Shown one piece after another: positions 55,657 through 63,162 of a stretch of 64,000 nt of DNA. The translations under genes were made by a program, and so were the position numbers. The notes under the pieces were generated by a model. That model was not told the origin of the DNA. It ran no database searches and saw nothing but the letters and a program-made list of their open reading frames with translations. Origin of the DNA: Variovorax gracilis (lineage in GTDB: Bacteria > Pseudomonadota > Gammaproteobacteria > Burkholderiales > Burkholderiaceae_C); assembly GCF_030317115.1 (NCBI RefSeq), contig NZ_JASZYF010000013.1:62001-126000 (forward strand). The letters run 5' to 3'. Numbering within the stretch: the first letter of the stretch is position 1; every line of letters begins with the position of its first letter.

Positions 55657-56436
55657 TCAACCTTCGACGAGTGCCAGTACCCGGAGCGGGCTGCCGGAAC
55701 CCTGCTGAATCTTCAGCGGTGCGGACACGATCAGTGCGCCCGTGGGTGGAAGCTGGTCGAGGTTCTTCAGGCATTGCAGGCCGTACCGGTTGGCGCCGTG
55801 CATGAGTGTGTGGCAGGGGTAGGCCAGTGGCCAGGCATAGGACTGCCCGGCGTCGGTGTTGATCGTCTCGACGCCGAAGCCATGCACCTTGCGCTCATGG
55901 ATGAGCCACTCCACCGCTGCCTGCGTGGGGCCCGGCGTATGGGCGCCGTCTTCGCGCATGTTCACGAAGGCCGCCGGGTCGCCGAGGCGCTTGGACCAGT
56001 CGGTGCGCAGGAACACCCAGGCGCCTTCGGGGATTCGGCCGTGTTGCGCTTCCCAGGCCTGCAGGAACTCGACGGTGAGCAGCCAGTCAGCGTCCTGCGC
56101 CACTTCGGCGCTCGCATCCACCACCACCGCCGGCGCAATGAAGTTGTCGGGCGCAATGGTGTCGACGGTGTTGCGAGGGTGGTCTTTGCCGGTCACCCAG
56201 TGTGCCGGCGCGTCGAAATGCGTGCCGGTGTGTTCGCCGCACGAGAAGTTGTTCCAGTACCAGCCGGGCCCGGCTTCGTCGTAGTGCGAGATGCGTTCCA
56301 TCTTGAACGGGGAGACCTGGCCGAACTGTGGCGGCAGTTGCAGGGCAGGGAAGTCCTCGCTCAAGGTGTGTGTGAGGTCGATCGCGCGAACCGAACCGTT
56401 GCGCAGGGATTGGGCGAGTTGCGTGAGGATGGTCAT
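55657..56436 (-). CDS. cyclase/KynB-like metal-dependent hydrolase
   Basis: A 259-residue member of the cyclase family (kynurenine formamidase KynB and isatin hydrolase). The defining metal motif CGEHTGTHFDAPAHW (about residue 67) is intact. IDLTHTLSEDFP opens the protein, and HTLMHGANRYGLQCL lies near the end. It hydrolyses an N-formyl or cyclic amide substrate. It is the last gene of a five-gene minus-strand operon. The ATG at 56436 is used; TTG 56448 is an alternative. Confidence 0.85.
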   Translation of the reverse strand: MTILTQLAQSLRNGSVRAIDLTHTLSEDFPALQLPPQFGQVSPFKMERISHYDEAGPGWYWNNFSCGEHTGTHFDAPAHWVTGKDHPRNTVDTIAPDNFIAPAVVVDASAEVAQDADWLLTVEFLQAWEAQHGRIPEGAWVFLRTDWSKRLGDPAAFVNMREDGAHTPGPTQAAVEWLIHERKVHGFGVETINTDAGQSYAWPLAYPCHTLMHGANRYGLQCLKNLDQLPPTGALIVSAPLKIQQGSGSPLRVLALVEG

Positions 56437-56482
56437 CAAAAGATCCAATCGAGAAAAGACGATTCACAAACCCCTGCGCGGC

Positions 56483-56884
56483 TCAGATCTGCCGCCGCGC
56501 GGTCACTTCGAGTTCGACCTTGGCGCCTTCCACGGCCAACGCGCTGCACAGCGTGGTGTTGGCCGGGCGGTTGGCATTGAAGCGGCGGCGGAGCACTTCG
56601 CTGACGGCGATCACGTCGGCGCGGTCCGGAACGTAGACGCGTACACGGACCACGTCGGCGAGGCTCGAGCGCGCTTGCGAGAGCGCGGCTTCGATCGTGT
56701 CGAGCGCGACCTCGCATTGCTGCTGCGCCGTGGCCGGAAACTCACCGGTGGCGAAGACCTGGCCCAAGGTGCCGGAGACGAAGACCCACTCGCCGTCGAC
56801 CACGGCGCGCGAGTAGCCGGCCAGCTCTTCCCAGCGCGATCCGCTCTGGATGAATTCGCGTCCCATGCGTATCTCGGTGTTCAT
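56483..56884 (-). CDS. RidA family (Rid/YjgF) protein
   Basis: A 133-residue trimeric Rid-type protein (SRAVVDGEWVFVSGTLGQ, ATAQQQCEVALDTIEAALSQ, RVRVYVPDRADV, ANTTLCSALAVEGAKVELEV). The substrate-binding Arg of true RidA imine deaminases is in the region VRVRVYV, and the Glu in KVELEVTA is present. It likely deaminates an enamine or imine produced by the PLP enzyme of the operon. Its ATG overlaps the Bug stop (ATGA); ATG 56866 is an alternative start. Confidence 0.87.
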   Translation of the reverse strand: MNTEIRMGREFIQSGSRWEELAGYSRAVVDGEWVFVSGTLGQVFATGEFPATAQQQCEVALDTIEAALSQARSSLADVVRVRVYVPDRADVIAVSEVLRRRFNANRPANTTLCSALAVEGAKVELEVTARRQI

Positions 56885-57870
56885 TGCGCCTTGAAGCCCG
56901 ATTCCCGGATCACCTTGCTCCAGTTGCGATTGGCATCGATCACCCACTGTCCGACTTCCTTCGACGAGGCGGCCGTGACCTCGTTGCCCATCTTCGCAAG
57001 GCGCTCCTGGAGGTCGGGCTGCGCCAGCGCCGTCTTCATCGCGAGGTCGAACTGGTCGACGAAATCCGGAGGCATCCCTTTCGGTCCGAAGAAGGCCAGC
57101 CACGGGTTCTTGTCGATTCCGCTGAAGCCCAGCTCCTGGAAGGTGGGGATCTCAGGTGCGGTCTTGCTGCGCTCCTGGCCCGAGCTGCCCAGGATGCGGA
57201 CCTTGCCGGCGCGGTGGTATTCGATCAGCTCCGTCATCGAGGCGATGCCGATCGGAATCTGTCCTGCGAGCAGGTCCTGCACCATGGGAGCGCCGCCCTT
57301 GTAGGGCACCGAGTTCATCGTCACGCCGAAGGACTTGCCGATGACGTGGCCGATGAACTGCGGAACGCTGCCGGCGGCGGGAATTCCATAGTTCGCTTCG
57401 TTCGGATGCGCCTTCACCCATGTGCCGAGCTCGGCCATGGTCTTCACGCCGGTGGCGGCGCTGACGGCGAGCACGTTGTAGTAGCTCGCCACGCCTGCCA
57501 GGGCGGTGAAGTCGGCCACCGGATCGTAGCCGGCAGCGGCGATGGTCAGGGGAATGATCACCTGCGTGTGGTCGATCGACAGCATGATGGTCGAGCCGTC
57601 CGCGGGTGCCGCCTTGAGCAGCTGTGCGGCGATCTGCCCTCCGGCGCCCGGCTTGTTGTCGACGACGAACACCTGGCCGCTCATGGTCTTGCCCAGCTTG
57701 TCGATCACGGCGCGCGCGACCACGTCCGTGGCGCCGCCCGGCGGAAAGCCGACCAGCACGCGGATGGGCCCGGTGTAGGCCTTGGTGCTGGCGTTGGCGC
57801 TCCAAGGCGACGAGAGCGCCGGAGCAAGCAAGGCTGCCGCGAATGCCTGGCCGAAATGGCGTCGATTCAT
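56881..57870 (-). CDS. Bug family periplasmic carboxylate-binding protein
   Basis: A 329-residue Bug receptor with a signal peptide ending ANAST, GPIRVLVGFPPGGATDVVAR, DNKPGAGGQIAAQLLKAAP, GYDPVADFTALAG and NSVPYKGGAPMVQDLLAGQI. GGAAGAG lies before the ATG. It is the only one of the four Bug genes in this window that is embedded in a catabolic operon other than the AtuA one, and probably captures the operon's substrate. No TctAB is present. Confidence 0.92.
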   Translation of the reverse strand: MNRRHFGQAFAAALLAPALSSPWSANASTKAYTGPIRVLVGFPPGGATDVVARAVIDKLGKTMSGQVFVVDNKPGAGGQIAAQLLKAAPADGSTIMLSIDHTQVIIPLTIAAAGYDPVADFTALAGVASYYNVLAVSAATGVKTMAELGTWVKAHPNEANYGIPAAGSVPQFIGHVIGKSFGVTMNSVPYKGGAPMVQDLLAGQIPIGIASMTELIEYHRAGKVRILGSSGQERSKTAPEIPTFQELGFSGIDKNPWLAFFGPKGMPPDFVDQFDLAMKTALAQPDLQERLAKMGNEVTAASSKEVGQWVIDANRNWSKVIRESGFKAQ

Positions 57871-57880
57871 GATCTCTTCC

Positions 57881-58381
57881 TCATCGTGGTTTCAAAGAAC
57901 TGGCGAGTGGCGTGGTGCGCGGCGATGCGGTCTGAAGGTCGAGGCGGGCCTGGATCAGCAGCACTTCTACTTCATGGCAATGCACGAGGCGCAGCCATCG
58001 GGCGTTGTCCATGTCGGGCGTGCGCGTCGCGAGCAGGCTGATGCGGCATGACTCGTCGGCGCCGTCCGCCGCGGCGAGGGGTTCGACCACCGCGCTGATG
58101 CGAGGGCTCAGCACGTCGGGCGTGCCGCCGACGTAGTAGACCACGGTCATGCGTGCCTCGTCCATCACGGGACGCACATAGCCCGGCTGATCATCAAACA
58201 GCGAATGGCCGCGCACGACGCCATCGCCAACGGCTTCCGTCTGCCAGCATCCCAGCGCCCAACGCCCGAGTTGCAGGCCATCGGCAAGGAAGGCCAGGGC
58301 CCGCTGCGCAGACACCCGGCATTCGGCCGAGGCGCAATGCGAGCTGGGGGTGTCCTCGGTGGGGTTTCGCATGGGCATCAT
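57881..58381 (-). CDS. hypothetical protein, SRPBCC-like
   Basis: A 166-residue soluble protein (RALAFLADGLQLGRWALGCW, SLFDDQPGYVRPVMDEARMT, VVYYVGGTPDVLSPRISAVV) whose pattern resembles a SRPBCC/START-type hydrophobic-ligand domain. No signal peptide. Its ATG overlaps the stop of the class V aminotransferase gene, and the Bug gene follows after 10 bases. A ligand-binding or ring-cyclizing accessory role is only inferred. Confidence 0.7.
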   Translation of the reverse strand: MMPMRNPTEDTPSSHCASAECRVSAQRALAFLADGLQLGRWALGCWQTEAVGDGVVRGHSLFDDQPGYVRPVMDEARMTVVYYVGGTPDVLSPRISAVVEPLAAADGADESCRISLLATRTPDMDNARWLRLVHCHEVEVLLIQARLDLQTASPRTTPLASSLKPR

Positions 58382-59514
58382 CGCGTCAGACGCGCGAGTT
58401 CGCGCAAGGCGCCCACGACGTCGTCAGCGGTGTTGTAGAAGTGCGGCGCGACACGGATGACGTCGTTGCGTGCAGAGACCACATAGCCGGCCTGCAGCAT
58501 CTGTGCCTCCACCTGCGCCGCATTGGGGATGCGGATGGCCGTGTTGGCGCCCTTGGCGGATGGGGCGGTCGGGCTTGCAATCGAAAGGCCGAGGCGCGCC
58601 GCTTCCTCTATGGCGACCGCCGAAAGCCGAGTCAGATAGGCCTCGATCGCCGGTATGCCGATCTCGTTCAGCAGGCTCATGCTGGCGCGGGCCACGCTGG
58701 CGCACATCATGGGCGGTGTGCCCGTATTGAAGCGGGTCGCTCCCGCCGCGAAATCGAGGTTGGCGGGGTTGAACTCGAACGGGTTCACGCGGCCGAACCA
58801 GCCGGTGACCGTGGGCGTCAGCCGCCTCGCGAGGTCGGGGCGCACATACAGGAAGGCGATGCCAGGAATGCCCAGCAGATATTTCTGTGCGCCGCTCGCG
58901 AGGATGTCGACGGCCTGTTCGCGAACATCGATCGCGATGGAGCCGGCGGATTGATAGGCATCGACGAACTGGATGGCGCCGCGTTCGCGCGATGCCCGGC
59001 CGGTGGCGTCGATGTCGACGATCTGGCCGTCATAGAAACAGGCATGCGAAACGGACACCAGGGCCGTCTGTGCATCGATGGTGTCTACGATGCGGTTCGT
59101 CGTGCCCGTGTCGCCGGCCTCCGCCTGCACGAAGCGAACCTGCGCGCCGCGGGGCTGCTGAGCCAGCCAGACATGGCAGATCGACGGGAAGTCCAGCGTG
59201 GTCGTGACGATGCCGCGGCGATCCGCTTCGAAGCGGAGCGCCGAGGCAATGCTGGAAGCCGCGTCCGACACGCTCCCTAGCATCGCGATGTCATCCACAT
59301 CGGCATGGATCATGCGAGCGAACTCCGCGCGCGCCAGGTCGACCTGCTCCATCCAGTAGCCCCAGTCGGCGCCGCGCCTCACCCAGGCATCGAGGTAGTC
59401 GTCGATGGCCTGCCGCACGGGCAGACTGAGCGCGCTCTGCGAGCAACTGGAGAGCTGGACCGCGTTGTCCAGGATAGGGAAGAGCTTGCGGTACGCAGAG
59501 AATGGATGATTCAT
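58378..59514 (-). CDS. class V PLP-dependent aminotransferase/kynureninase-like enzyme
   Basis: A 378-residue fold-type I PLP enzyme. QLSSCSQSALSLPVRQAIDD opens the protein; the PLP Asp region is SVSHACFYDGQIVDID, FVDAYQSAGSIAIDV and the Schiff-base Lys is in ASGAQKYLLGIPGIAFLY (about residue 220). NTGTPPMM and a C-terminal small domain follow. It could be a kynureninase-like beta-lyase, a desulfurase or an epimerase. AAGGCG lies before the ATG. It heads a five-gene operon and is divergent from a Crp/Fnr gene 35 bases away. Confidence 0.8.
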   Translation of the reverse strand: MNHPFSAYRKLFPILDNAVQLSSCSQSALSLPVRQAIDDYLDAWVRRGADWGYWMEQVDLARAEFARMIHADVDDIAMLGSVSDAASSIASALRFEADRRGIVTTTLDFPSICHVWLAQQPRGAQVRFVQAEAGDTGTTNRIVDTIDAQTALVSVSHACFYDGQIVDIDATGRASRERGAIQFVDAYQSAGSIAIDVREQAVDILASGAQKYLLGIPGIAFLYVRPDLARRLTPTVTGWFGRVNPFEFNPANLDFAAGATRFNTGTPPMMCASVARASMSLLNEIGIPAIEAYLTRLSAVAIEEAARLGLSIASPTAPSAKGANTAIRIPNAAQVEAQMLQAGYVVSARNDVIRVAPHFYNTADDVVGALRELARLTR

Positions 59515-59520
59515 GAAATC

Positions 59521-59540
59521 GCCTTGCGCAACGACAAGGC
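59521..59540. promoter_or_regulatory. inverted repeat in the 35-bp gap between the class V enzyme and Crp/Fnr genes
   Basis: Perfect 6-base arms GCCTTG (59521-59526) and CAAGGC (59535-59540) around 8 bases; the left arm also contains the palindrome TTGCGCAA (59524-59531). It occupies most of the divergent intergenic region and is a natural site for the adjacent Crp-family protein. Confidence 0.5.
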
Positions 59541-59549
59541 CTTGAGACG

Positions 59550-60242
59550 ATGAACAAGAACGGAGACACGGCGACGTCCCCCTCGGCATGGATCGAGGTG
59601 CCGCACTTCGCCTGGAAGACGCTGACGGCAGGCGGCGCGCCAACGGTGCGCTTCAGCAAGGGCCAGACCCTGTTTTCGCAGGGCGACCCGGTGAACCATG
59701 TGCTCGTCGTCGAGCACGGGCGCGTACGGCTGGTGCTGTTGTCGGAGTCCGGACACGAGAAGCACATGGCCATCGTCGGCACCCACGGGCTGGTCGGGGA
59801 ATGCAGCGCCTTCCTGGACGGCCGCCATTCGGTGACTGCGGTGGCCTCGTCGGACGTGGTGGCACGGCAGGTCGAGCGGCAGCAATTGCTGCACTGCATC
59901 GAGCGCGACCCCGAGTGCCTGCGCCAGGTGCTCTGGCTGATGAACGTCAAGCTGCGCGTGCTCGCCCACCAGAACCTGCTCCTGAGCCAGGCCACTGCCG
60001 CCCAGCGGGTGATCCACCATCTGGTGCAACTGGCCGACACCTACGGCGAGGCGCACGCCGCGGGCGTTGCGATCCGCATTTCCTTCACGCACCAGGAGAT
60101 GGCCAACATCGCCGGCCTGAGCCGCGTCATGACCTCGAACGTGCTGACCCAGCTTCAGGACCAGGGGATGATCGAGATGGTCAAGTCGCATTGCGTGATT
60201 CGGGATCCGGACGGATTGAGGCGGCGGGCGCTGGCTCTGTGA
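59550..60242 (+). CDS. Crp/Fnr family transcriptional regulator
   Basis: A 230-residue regulator with an N-terminal cyclic-nucleotide-binding-like jelly roll (SKGQTLFSQGDPVNHVLVVE, HGRVRLVLLSESGHEKHMAI) and a C-terminal winged helix (SFTHQEMANIAGLSRVMTSN). The N-terminus lacks an FNR-type Cys cluster, so it is not an oxygen sensor of that kind. It probably controls the divergent class V/Bug/RidA operon and itself. Confidence 0.87.
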   Translation: MNKNGDTATSPSAWIEVPHFAWKTLTAGGAPTVRFSKGQTLFSQGDPVNHVLVVEHGRVRLVLLSESGHEKHMAIVGTHGLVGECSAFLDGRHSVTAVASSDVVARQVERQQLLHCIERDPECLRQVLWLMNVKLRVLAHQNLLLSQATAAQRVIHHLVQLADTYGEAHAAGVAIRISFTHQEMANIAGLSRVMTSNVLTQLQDQGMIEMVKSHCVIRDPDGLRRRALAL

Positions 60243-60463: not shown

Positions 60464-61660
60464 ATGAATCCGATCGACATCCGCAAGGTCCTCGTTCTGG
60501 GCGCTGGCAAGGTCGGCGGCACGGTCGCCGACATGGTGGCCGAGTACCACCGGCTGCCTGTCACGCTCGCAGACCGTGAGCTACGTCGGCACGAGCCCGG
60601 CGATCGACTGGTGCAGTGCATCATCGTCAATGTCGAGGACGACACCGCGCTCGCCGCCGCGATGCTGGGCCATGACGTCGTGATCAATGCGCTGCCTTTC
60701 TATCTCGCATCGAACGTCGCGGCGGCAGCCCGATCCCTCGGCGTGCACTACTTCGACCTGACGGAAGACGTCGCCGCCACAGCCGCCATCCGCGCCATGG
60801 CAGAGGGTTCCCCTACGGTGCTGATGCCGCAGAGCGGCCTTGCACCCGGCGTGATCGGGATGCTGGGAGGCCACCTTGCAAATCGCTTCGACGAGCTCTA
60901 CGACCTTCACCTGCGTGTCGGCGCGCTTTCGCGCCACGCGACCAACGGACTGCGCTACAACTTCACATGGAGCATCGACGGCGTCATCAACGAGTACTGT
61001 CATCCGTGCGCGGCCATCGTGCAGGGCCATCCGGTGTCCGCGCAACCGCTCGAAGGACTCGAGACGCTGATGCTCGACGGGGAAAGTTTTGAGGCCTTCA
61101 ACACCTCGGGCGGGCTTGGCACGCTCTGCGAGACGCTTGCGGGGCGTGTGCGGAACCTCGACTACAAGACCCTCCGCTACCCTGGTCACCGCGATGCCAT
61201 GGCGTTGCTGCTGCACGACCTCCGCCTGATCGAGCGTCGCGATCTGCTGAGGCAGGTTCTCGACCACGCCGTGCCGCACAGCCGTGAAGACAAGGTGATC
61301 GTGTTCGCATCGGCTTCGGGATTGCGCCATGGCCGTTTCGAGCAGGAGACGCGCATGGCCCGCATCCACGGCGGCCGGCTGCGCGGCGTGGACCGTACCG
61401 CCATCGAGCTGGCGACGGCTGCCGGGGTCGTGGGCGTGTTCGAACTGCTGCGCAATGGGCAGTTGCCTGTGTGCGGCTTCGTCGGGCAGGAGCAGGTTGC
61501 GCTCGAAGCTTTCCTCGCTACGCGGGTCGGCAGTTGCTACGCGGGCCTGGGTGACGCAGGCGCCGGCGCCGAACACGCGAGTGCGCCTCGCGGCCAGACC
61601 TTCGCACATACTTGGCCGCCTCAGGCACGACGCCGGAACCGGAAGGAGCCACAAGCATGA
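60464..61660 (+). CDS. saccharopine dehydrogenase-like/lysine 6-dehydrogenase family protein
   Basis: A 398-residue NAD(P)-dependent oxidoreductase. The N-terminal Rossmann motif is VLVLGAGKVGGTVADMVAEY, then VVINALPFYL and VHYFDLTEDV; the C-terminal saccharopine-dehydrogenase domain has MPQSGLAPGVIGMLGG and LRYNFTWSIDGVINEY. With the downstream ALDH7 gene it probably converts lysine to aminoadipate semialdehyde. Its stop overlaps the ALDH start (ATGA). AAGGAG precedes the ATG. Confidence 0.85.
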   Translation: MNPIDIRKVLVLGAGKVGGTVADMVAEYHRLPVTLADRELRRHEPGDRLVQCIIVNVEDDTALAAAMLGHDVVINALPFYLASNVAAAARSLGVHYFDLTEDVAATAAIRAMAEGSPTVLMPQSGLAPGVIGMLGGHLANRFDELYDLHLRVGALSRHATNGLRYNFTWSIDGVINEYCHPCAAIVQGHPVSAQPLEGLETLMLDGESFEAFNTSGGLGTLCETLAGRVRNLDYKTLRYPGHRDAMALLLHDLRLIERRDLLRQVLDHAVPHSREDKVIVFASASGLRHGRFEQETRMARIHGGRLRGVDRTAIELATAAGVVGVFELLRNGQLPVCGFVGQEQVALEAFLATRVGSCYAGLGDAGAGAEHASAPRGQTFAHTWPPQARRRNRKEPQA

Positions 61661-63162
61661 GTGACGTACAAGCTGTTCTCGAACGCTGCGGAATCACCGC
61701 GCCGCAACTCTCGGGCGGCGCACTGCGCGTGCGCTCGGCCATCGACGGCGCCGATCTCGCGCACCTGCATGAGACGCCGGCCGCGTCGATGCCCGAGGTG
61801 GTCGCGCGTTCGCAGGCCGCATTTCGGCTCTGGCGCGAAGTGCCGGCGCCCTCGCGCGGCGAACTGGTGCGGCTCTGGGGCGAGGAACTGCGCAAGTCCA
61901 AGGTCGATATCGGCCAGGTCATCTCGCTCGAAGTCGGCAAGATCGCCCAGGAAGGGCTGGGCGAAGTGCAGGAGGGCGTGGACATCTGCGAATTCGCGCT
62001 CGGCCTGTCGCGGCAGCTCTACGGCAGGACCATCGTGTCGGAACGGCCGGGCCACCGGATCATGGAGCAGTACCACCCGCTGGGGCCGGTGGCGGTCATC
62101 ACGGCATTCAACTTTCCGAGCGCGGTGTTCGCCTGGAATGCCGCCATCGCGCTGGTGTGCGGCGACCCCGTGATCTTCAAGCCGTCGGAGAAAGCGCCGC
62201 TGTCCGGCCTCGTGACCTTCAGGGCGCTGGAACGCGCGATCGCGCGCTTCGGACACGGCGCACCGCGGGGGCTCGCGCAGATCGTGATCGGTGGCGCGGC
62301 GCAGTCGCAGGCGCTGGTCGACAGCCCCGACATTCCGCTGGTGTCCGCGACCGGCTCCACGCGCATGGGCCGGGAGGTTGGTCCGCGTGTGGCGGCGCGA
62401 TTCGGCCGGCGCATCCTCGAACTCGGCGGGAACAACGCGATGATCGTCACGCCGGCGGCCGATCTCGACATGGCCTTGCGGGCGATCCTGTTCAGTGCGG
62501 TGGGCACCGCTGGCCAACGCTGCACCTCGCTGCGCCGGCTCATCGTTCATCGCACGGTCAAGGAGGCCTTGGTGGCGAAGCTGCTGGCGGCCTACGAAAG
62601 CCTGCACATCGGTCATCCGCTGGAAGAGGGCACGCTGGTCGGCCCGCTGATCGACGAGGCCGCTTACGACGCCCTGCGGAATGCCGTCGCCGAAGTCGAG
62701 GCGCAGGGCGGCCGCATTCTCTTCGGCGGCGATCGCGTGCTGGCCGAGCGCTTCCCGAGGGCCTACTACGTGCGCCCCGCCATTGCCGACATGCCGGCGC
62801 AGACAGAGTTGGTCCGGCGCGAAACCTTCGGCCCGTTGCTCCATGTGCTGGCCTACGACGACCTCGATCAGGCGATTGCGATCCACAACGACGTTCCACA
62901 AGGCTTGTCGTCGTGCATCTTCTCGAACGACTTGCGCGAGGTCGAGCGATTCATCTCCGCGGCGGGCTCGGATTGCGGCATGGCCAACGTGAACATCGGT
63001 CCGAGTGGCGCAGAGATCGGCGGTGCATTCGGCGGCGAGAAGGAAACGGGCGGCGACCGCGAGAGCGGCTCGGACGCATGGAAGCAATACATGCGGCGCA
63101 CGACGAACACCATCAACTTCTCGACCGAGCTGCCGCTGGCACAGGGCATCCGGTTCGGCTGA
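61657..63162 (+). CDS. amaB: ALDH7-type aminoadipate semialdehyde dehydrogenase
   Basis: A 501-residue aldehyde dehydrogenase. The cofactor-binding region is VAVITAFNFPSAVFAWN; the catalytic Glu lies in LELGGNNAMIV and the Cys in TAGQRCTSLRRL, the latter matching the ALDH7 (antiquitin) subfamily. Substrate: alpha-aminoadipate semialdehyde/piperideine-6-carboxylate to aminoadipate. GGAAGGAG precedes the ATG at 61657. It ends 8 bases from the convergent radical-SAM gene. Confidence 0.87.
   Translation: MSDVQAVLERCGITAPQLSGGALRVRSAIDGADLAHLHETPAASMPEVVARSQAAFRLWREVPAPSRGELVRLWGEELRKSKVDIGQVISLEVGKIAQEGLGEVQEGVDICEFALGLSRQLYGRTIVSERPGHRIMEQYHPLGPVAVITAFNFPSAVFAWNAAIALVCGDPVIFKPSEKAPLSGLVTFRALERAIARFGHGAPRGLAQIVIGGAAQSQALVDSPDIPLVSATGSTRMGREVGPRVAARFGRRILELGGNNAMIVTPAADLDMALRAILFSAVGTAGQRCTSLRRLIVHRTVKEALVAKLLAAYESLHIGHPLEEGTLVGPLIDEAAYDALRNAVAEVEAQGGRILFGGDRVLAERFPRAYYVRPAIADMPAQTELVRRETFGPLLHVLAYDDLDQAIAIHNDVPQGLSSCIFSNDLREVERFISAAGSDCGMANVNIGPSGAEIGGAFGGEKETGGDRESGSDAWKQYMRRTTNTINFSTELPLAQGIRFG

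Follow-up and report, generated by a model that had tools for sequence, protein, structure and literature searches.

Isatin-directed catabolism is already known in bacteria, with indole and indole-3-acetic acid (IAA) as its entries. The isatin hydrolases RsIHA of Ralstonia (structure 5nmp), LaIHA (5nnb) and LaIHB (4j0n) have the manganese motif HxGTHxDxPxH in common. RsIHA has been crystallised and shows Michaelis-Menten kinetics on isatin, and the available text of the structural study assigns metal binding to His69, His73, Asp75 and Gln219 and catalysis to His79, His207 and Asp193; the position of Gln219 is occupied by Glu in KynB, and Gln219 is found in LaIHA and RsIHA as compared with LaIHB, which is itself an assayed isatin hydrolase (PMC6117287). 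Within the genus Variovorax, the iad locus converts IAA to anthranilate, and its iadI gene is annotated as a kynurenine formamidase. This route was reported in 2022 to run through isatin (PMC9613470, in the part of the article accessible to us), and the accessible part of a 2025 preprint revises the early steps, with C8H7NO2 accumulating when IadI is missing and IadI described as a possible broad-specificity amidase (PMC12633357). Here we describe a five-gene operon in a window of 64,000 nucleotides from Variovorax gracilis (C10:62001-126000 of a 7.78 Mb genome, whose nearest relatives of the operon's first gene are Variovorax by name). The operon encodes a cyclase of the isatin-hydrolase type and differs from iad in having a pyridoxal phosphate (PLP) enzyme and a Bug-type solute receptor instead of a Rieske oxygenase or thiolase.

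An isatin-hydrolase-type cyclase in a conserved operon

The five-gene operon is real and conserved, and its cyclase is, by sequence, an isatin hydrolase. We tentatively favour, with somewhat less than even confidence, a route in which the operon takes up an amino acid of the oxidised-tryptophan type, cleaves it to isatin and opens isatin to isatinate. The Bug receptor would import the aromatic amino acid, an oxidised relative of tryptophan, and the class V PLP enzyme would detach its side chain by breaking the bond from C-beta to the ring, in the manner of a kynureninase; the products would be alanine and an oxindole-type compound, either isatin itself or one that turns into isatin, perhaps via dioxindole. 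The hydrolase would then produce isatinate (2-aminophenylglyoxylate), to be carried further by enzymes encoded elsewhere in the genome. A small SRPBCC-like protein and a Rid protein lacking the family's arginine would probably bind or convert an unstable intermediate between the two enzymes, and a Crp-like protein encoded divergently would sense the substrate. The sequences directly show the gene content, the synteny, a complete isatin-hydrolase active site, the missing Rid arginine, the predicted SRPBCC fold and the separate kynurenine genes of the host; the remainder of the scheme, from substrate and PLP reaction to step order, regulation and the parts played by the two small proteins, is our inference.

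The predicted conversion of isatin to isatinate has strong homology behind it. The best solved relative of the cyclase is RsIHA (494 bits, 79.4% identity over 257 residues), and identity to LaIHA is 57.9%. The manganese motif common to all three described enzymes is present, as are the catalytic His79/His207/Asp193 and the Gln219 of LaIHA and RsIHA, so that all seven residues (H69, H73, D75, H79, D193, H207 and Q219) are kept. The original prediction had called this protein a KynB-like cyclase, a label that gives way to the isatin-hydrolase type, as the protein has Gln for Glu at position 219 and scores 22.9 bits against the TIGR03035 cut-off of 223.

Unlike the known isatin hydrolases, the window cyclase is encoded with a PLP enzyme and a Bug receptor and not beside an indole or IAA oxygenase; inspection of Pfam matches and open reading frames in the unit found no oxygenase of that kind among the five genes or the crp gene. 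We compared 14 loci outside this operon that encode homologues 60-82% identical to the cyclase. Four (L041, L081-L083) carry a gene of the styrene/indole-monooxygenase type, and another (L080) is a Rieske/thiolase cluster of the host itself, with a 60% paralogue, which resembles the iad locus. Six more (L085-L089, L092) have at least five genes in common with that host cluster, the Rieske gene not being among them in L089, and the remaining three (L039, L040, L091) have one or none and fit neither type. Variovorax soli, in which the operon is found without the cyclase, has a 79% copy of it near a Rieske-type gene elsewhere.

The gene set had also been predicted to describe a complete route, which overstates it: nothing in the operon would carry isatinate further. 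POR/DUF6537-type genes accompany several isatin-hydrolase loci, and DUF6537 proteins are encoded in all 10 genomes tested, in four places in the host, one of them in the C17 cluster. These enzymes could carry isatinate further, although most of the copies listed sit in long frames and could represent different 2-oxoacid oxidoreductases.

Conserved synteny, on which the original prediction had staked its case, was found across genera. Orthologues of the PLP enzyme (69-93% identity) occur in 14 further genomes, giving 15 with the window, from Variovorax, Ramlibacter, Pseudacidovorax and one unclassified metagenome-assembled genome (MAG). Thirteen of these loci came from one pattern-based scan of a species-genome collection, whose fourteenth locus (L055) is only 36% identical and was left out, and one came from a further genome (G008). 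All five genes stand in the same order with the divergent crp gene in 12 of the 15 genomes, the window counted; the order PLP-SRPBCC-Bug-Rid is kept in 14, and the divergent crp gene is likewise present in 14. Where the set is incomplete, the contig ends before the cyclase (L048), the operon is without it (L050, V. soli), or the locus is rearranged (L053), with PLP, Bug and Rid genes together, the SRPBCC gene and a second Bug gene elsewhere in the locus, and no cyclase in the 13.3 kb that the locus covers.

The module is rare, being found in 9 of 101 relatives (the genome itself included), all nine of one genus. In samples of 399 genomes from the order and 398 from the phylum, the only other matches at the thresholds used were 31-36% identical, and a profile of the SRPBCC-like protein matched 2 of 200 genomes of the family. 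By eye, the flanking reading frames vary among the Variovorax, Ramlibacter and Pseudacidovorax loci, and the module therefore looks self-contained; a GH25 gene downstream was seen only at the window's own locus among nine compared. Two loci have features of their own. In a Ramlibacter MAG (L046, 1131-6943), the module lies, as judged by eye, between two similar ATP-synthase epsilon-like frames, which may reflect insertion into the atp operon with duplication or an assembly artefact. In the KLAP71 MAG (L053, 6676-7905), a cupin protein whose N-terminal part weakly matches glyoxalase is encoded between two Crp-like genes.

The PLP enzyme and a proposed origin of isatin

The PLP enzyme has the cofactor lysine (Lys211), the phenylalanine of an FP motif (Phe109) and a GWFG loop, as judged by residue comparison, and it reaches no NCBIfam cut-off. 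With the kynureninase KynU (TIGR01814) it has in common the class V family, the FP motif, the GW(F/W)G loop and the C-terminal Arg region. Its C-terminal Pfam match (KYNU_C) is kynureninase-like as well. Assignment to the kynureninase family itself is not supported: the score is 76.2 bits against a cut-off of 246.4, and Gln-Lys and DAYQ are found where all seven same-genus kynureninases compared have Tyr-Lys and DLAH (seven sequences extracted from eight kynU loci, L110 being left out). Cysteine desulfurases have a catalytic-cysteine loop before the C-terminal arginine. We rejected a cysteine desulfurase of the SufS/NifS kind, for which the score is 82.1 bits against a cut-off of 475 and no cysteine is present in the C-terminal stretch GYVVSARNDVIRVAPHF. 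The AlphaFold model of the enzyme is mediocre (mean predicted local distance difference test score, pLDDT, 71.5, and below 50 at 234-267).

A link to tryptophan comes from distant relatives of this enzyme. Genes for proteins 36-38% identical to it directly follow a gene of the tryptophan dioxygenase (TDO) family in Burkholderiales (L079), Micromonospora (L119) and Nonomuraea (L129/L140), each locus having a second, larger TDO-family gene. As in the window operon, an isatin-hydrolase-family gene is present in L079 (47% identical) and L140 (51%); unlike the operon, these clusters carry the TDO-family and further genes, including a flavin adenine dinucleotide (FAD) monooxygenase and a class IV aminotransferase in L079 (from Pfam) and L140 (by eye). 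The families of the PLP enzyme and the cyclase meet in three settings (the operon, L079 and L140), which argues for one pathway acting on an oxidised tryptophan skeleton. A TDO-family gene lies within the locus in 7 of 23 distant PLP loci, a count that excludes L050, L053, L125 and L130, which were also scanned. With L127 set aside as chosen through a TDO search, and L128, L134 and L135 because their PLP genes share with kynureninase a six-row group of weak support, three clean cases are left: L079, L119 and L129. Of the six loci obtained by the TDO search (L125-L130), three (L127, L128, L129) have a class V gene adjacent to the TDO-family gene or close by. The neighbourhoods of three other PLP relatives (L120, L123, L124) have no tryptophan link.

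The arrangement of a small TDO-family gene, a class V PLP gene and a large TDO-family gene recurs in L079, L119/L139 and L129/L140, once together with a nitric oxide synthase gene, and looks like a tryptophan-modifying biosynthetic set.

For the substrate, our preference is dioxindolylalanine (3-hydroxy-2-oxindol-3-yl-alanine), because a kynureninase-like retro-aldol cleavage would yield isatin and alanine directly; kynureninase itself has a retro-aldol side reaction. More boldly, the operon might provide a third bacterial entry to isatin besides indole and IAA, with imported free dioxindolylalanine as an oxidative damage product, retro-aldol cleavage to isatin and alanine by the kynureninase-fold PLP enzyme, and the SRPBCC and Rid proteins as working parts. 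In that form it would assign a reaction to the PLP clade and a pathway to a Rid4-7 protein. We regard this fuller version as distinctly doubtful.

The same evidence has to be weighed against a second, specialised kynurenine-type pathway, in which the PLP enzyme would cleave kynurenine, or an N-formyl- or ring-substituted form of it, to anthranilate and alanine, and the cyclase would remove the formyl group. The TDO-family, FAD monooxygenase, class IV aminotransferase and cyclase-family genes that accompany the PLP relatives in L079 and L140 look like kynurenine steps, and the FP motif and GWFG loop are those of kynureninases, a canonical member of which shares a tree group of 29 rows with the operon enzymes. 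We nevertheless consider this pathway unlikely, as the cyclase has the isatin-hydrolase Gln and not the Glu of KynB and falls far below the KynB cut-off, the PLP enzyme departs from the genus kynureninases at Tyr-Lys and DLAH, and the host already has kynA and kynU at C17:330447-332562. On the KynB and KynU comparisons and the separate location of kynA and kynU, the kynurenine pathway proper was rejected for this operon. The resemblance to that pathway noted in the original prediction thus survives as a plausible link to tryptophan oxidation, and not in its KynB and kynureninase identities.

The tree of PLP enzymes was built from 39 of 48 collected sequences (nine duplicates, near-duplicates, fragments and a second hit were dropped), with 10 of the 15 operon genomes included; in it, the 10 operon rows come together in a single starred clade. 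Within the 29-row group there is also a starred clade of four, three of them encoded beside TDO-family genes (L079 as L056, L119 and L129). The Priestia and Bacillus relatives (40-41% identical) have no telling neighbours. Around the Deinococcus and Natronosalvus relatives (L121, L122, L038), several M24 peptidase-type genes and an FAD oxidoreductase gene are found nearby.

These last neighbourhoods, which have no indole link, are consistent with a non-indolic substrate, in which case the cyclase would have shifted to a different cyclic amide or lactone and an unrelated amino acid would be the substrate of the PLP enzyme; further relatives without an indole link (L035, L036, L120, L123, L124) point the same way. 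The cyclase, 79% identical to an assayed isatin hydrolase and with a complete active site, argues against it, and we hold a non-indolic substrate to be quite unlikely.

Several observations weigh against the route from an oxidised tryptophan to isatin. The operon clade is nearest, with weak support, to the Priestia/Bacillus and Natronosalvus genes and not to the TDO-linked clade, and the canonical kynureninase within the 29-row group (L110) lies on a long branch. Nor is a TDO-family gene always accompanied by a PLP relative: none is annotated in L125 and L126, and none was found in L130. At position 219 the L079 and L140 cyclases carry Thr, and their substrate may differ; Thr at this position does not by itself exclude isatin, because LaIHB, the enzyme contrasted over Gln219, is an assayed isatin hydrolase. 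The gene sets of these two loci could equally be a rebuilt kynurenine pathway. The operon contains no oxygenase or oxidase, so isatin must come straight from the cleavage. The cyclase is absent from the V. soli operon and was not found in L053, and the PLP-SRPBCC-Bug-Rid core can thus exist without it. Finally, in the accessible part of the 2025 preprint the substrate of the related IadI is left open (PMC12633357).

The Rid and SRPBCC-like proteins

The RidA/YjgF imine deaminases have an essential arginine (Arg105 in RidA), and the operon protein, which matches the family at 75.7 bits, has Asn at the aligned position in all 15 orthologues. In the available text of a 2015 survey, RidA and Rid1-3 keep this arginine, which is essential for imine hydrolysis, whereas Rid4-7, in which it is missing, seem not to act as imine hydrolases and "remain mysterious" (PMC4433059). 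By its sequence the operon protein is of the Rid4-7 kind, and the label of imine deaminase given to it originally should be dropped, since the arginine is absent throughout the orthologues.

The SRPBCC-like protein has no Pfam match; among 14 family members, weak matches to Polyketide_cyc2 are seen in eight (best E 0.0079). The protein's AlphaFold model (mean pLDDT 82.8) has the secondary structure beta-alpha-alpha-beta(n)-alpha of a predicted helix-grip, and Foldseek matched it in the PDB to PYR/PYL receptors (PYL2), lachrymatory factor synthase and PR-10 at a probability of 1.00 and TM-scores of 0.41-0.65. PYL, lachrymatory factor synthase and PR-10 proteins belong to SRPBCC, and the predicted SRPBCC fold is in line with the name that the protein had been given. 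Invariant residues (M124, D125, R128-L132 and C135-E137) lie in its C-terminal helix. The genes of its two relatives in a plasmid collection (34%, Caballeronia) adjoin those of a flavin monooxygenase of the acyl-CoA dehydrogenase (ACAD) type, a flavin reductase and an HpcH/HpaI aldolase. The highest scores of that monooxygenase are to phenol-type hydroxylases, though under the cut-offs, and IacA, which attacks IAA, is likewise annotated as ACAD in the accessible part of a published account (PMC7225977). As a link to indole-type compounds, these neighbours are suggestive only.

Lachrymatory factor synthase handles the unstable leaving group that alliinase produces. The presence of PLP, Rid and SRPBCC genes in one operon could be read in a similar way, as a beta-lyase pathway in which elimination by the PLP enzyme from a beta-substituted alanine yields 2-aminoacrylate, deamination of this by the Rid protein gives pyruvate, and the SRPBCC protein deals with an unstable leaving group. 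Lachrymatory factor synthase is among the Foldseek matches, and Rid-family genes lie near PLP relatives in 2 of the 23 distant loci, one with the arginine (L037) and one without (L038). This pathway is weakened by the lack of the imine-hydrolysing arginine in all 15 orthologues, and the likeness to lachrymatory factor synthase does not go beyond the fold (11-17% identity); we consider it improbable.

Coordinates, flanking genes and significance

The features are collected in Table 1. The layout agrees with the original prediction: five minus-strand genes at 55657-59514 joined by ATGA overlaps (PLP/SRPBCC and Bug/Rid) or by short gaps of 10 bases (SRPBCC-Bug) and 46 bases (Rid-cyclase), with a divergent Crp/Fnr-family gene. 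Pfam matches likewise bear out an uptake receptor (TctC), a PLP enzyme (Aminotran_5) and a ring or amide hydrolase (Cyclase) as its parts, and there is, as had been said, no tryptophan dioxygenase gene in the unit.

Table 1. Operon genes, divergent gene and intervening gap, in window positions
Feature	Position	Strand	Evidence
Class V (fold type I) PLP enzyme, 378 aa	58378..59514	-	Pfam PF00266 Aminotran_5 120.5 bits; KYNU_C 30.9 bits
SRPBCC/START-like small protein, 166 aa	57881..58381	-	No Pfam match; predicted from AlphaFold and Foldseek
Bug/TctC periplasmic solute receptor, 329 aa	56881..57870	-	PF03401 TctC 184.7 bits
RidA-superfamily protein, 133 aa, catalytic Arg replaced by Asn	56483..56884	-	PF01042 Ribonuc_L-PSP 75.7 bits; alignment of 15 orthologues
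Isatin-hydrolase-type cyclase, 259 aa, motif HTGTHFDAPAH, Gln219 equivalent	55657..56436	-	PF04199 Cyclase 149 bits; 5nmp 494 bits
Crp/Fnr-family gene, divergent, 230 aa, possible operon regulator	59550..60242	+	PF00027 and PF13545; regulator role from position
Divergent start-to-start gap, 35 bases, inverted repeat GCCTTG-N8-CAAGGC	59515..59549	.	Window sequence

The start-to-start gap is 35 bases in the window and in several relatives, so that two ordinary promoters would hardly fit. Its inverted repeat reads GCCTTG/CAAGGC in some Variovorax and GCCCG/CGGGC in others; it is missing in Pseudacidovorax and Ramlibacter and was therefore not used as evidence.

Beyond the crp gene, at 60464-63162, a saccharopine-dehydrogenase-like gene and a gene for L-piperidine-6-carboxylate dehydrogenase look like a lysine/allysine oxidation pair. 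Their adjacency in the window, and the score of the aldehyde dehydrogenase (763.8 bits against the NCBIfam cut-off of 730), would fit an operon that belongs with them to lysine or pipecolate breakdown. We consider this highly improbable: both genes adjoin the module in only 5 of the 15 genomes, L047 has the first one only, the L048 contig ends too early to tell, and neither was found in the Ramlibacter and Pseudacidovorax loci. The pair was accordingly rejected as part of the unit.

A description of this operon was not found in the open-access literature searched (one library). Its genes are a likely annotation trap, as the labels "kynurenine formamidase" and "RidA" would point to the kynurenine pathway. 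Entry to isatin-directed catabolism through such an operon would be unusual, and the operon offers a genomic setting, kept across relatives, for a Rid protein that lacks the arginine for imine hydrolysis. If the proposed route from an oxidised tryptophan is true, an amino-acid branch would be added to isatin metabolism in a genus known for clearing auxin, and an unassigned clade of class V PLP enzymes would gain a testable reaction.

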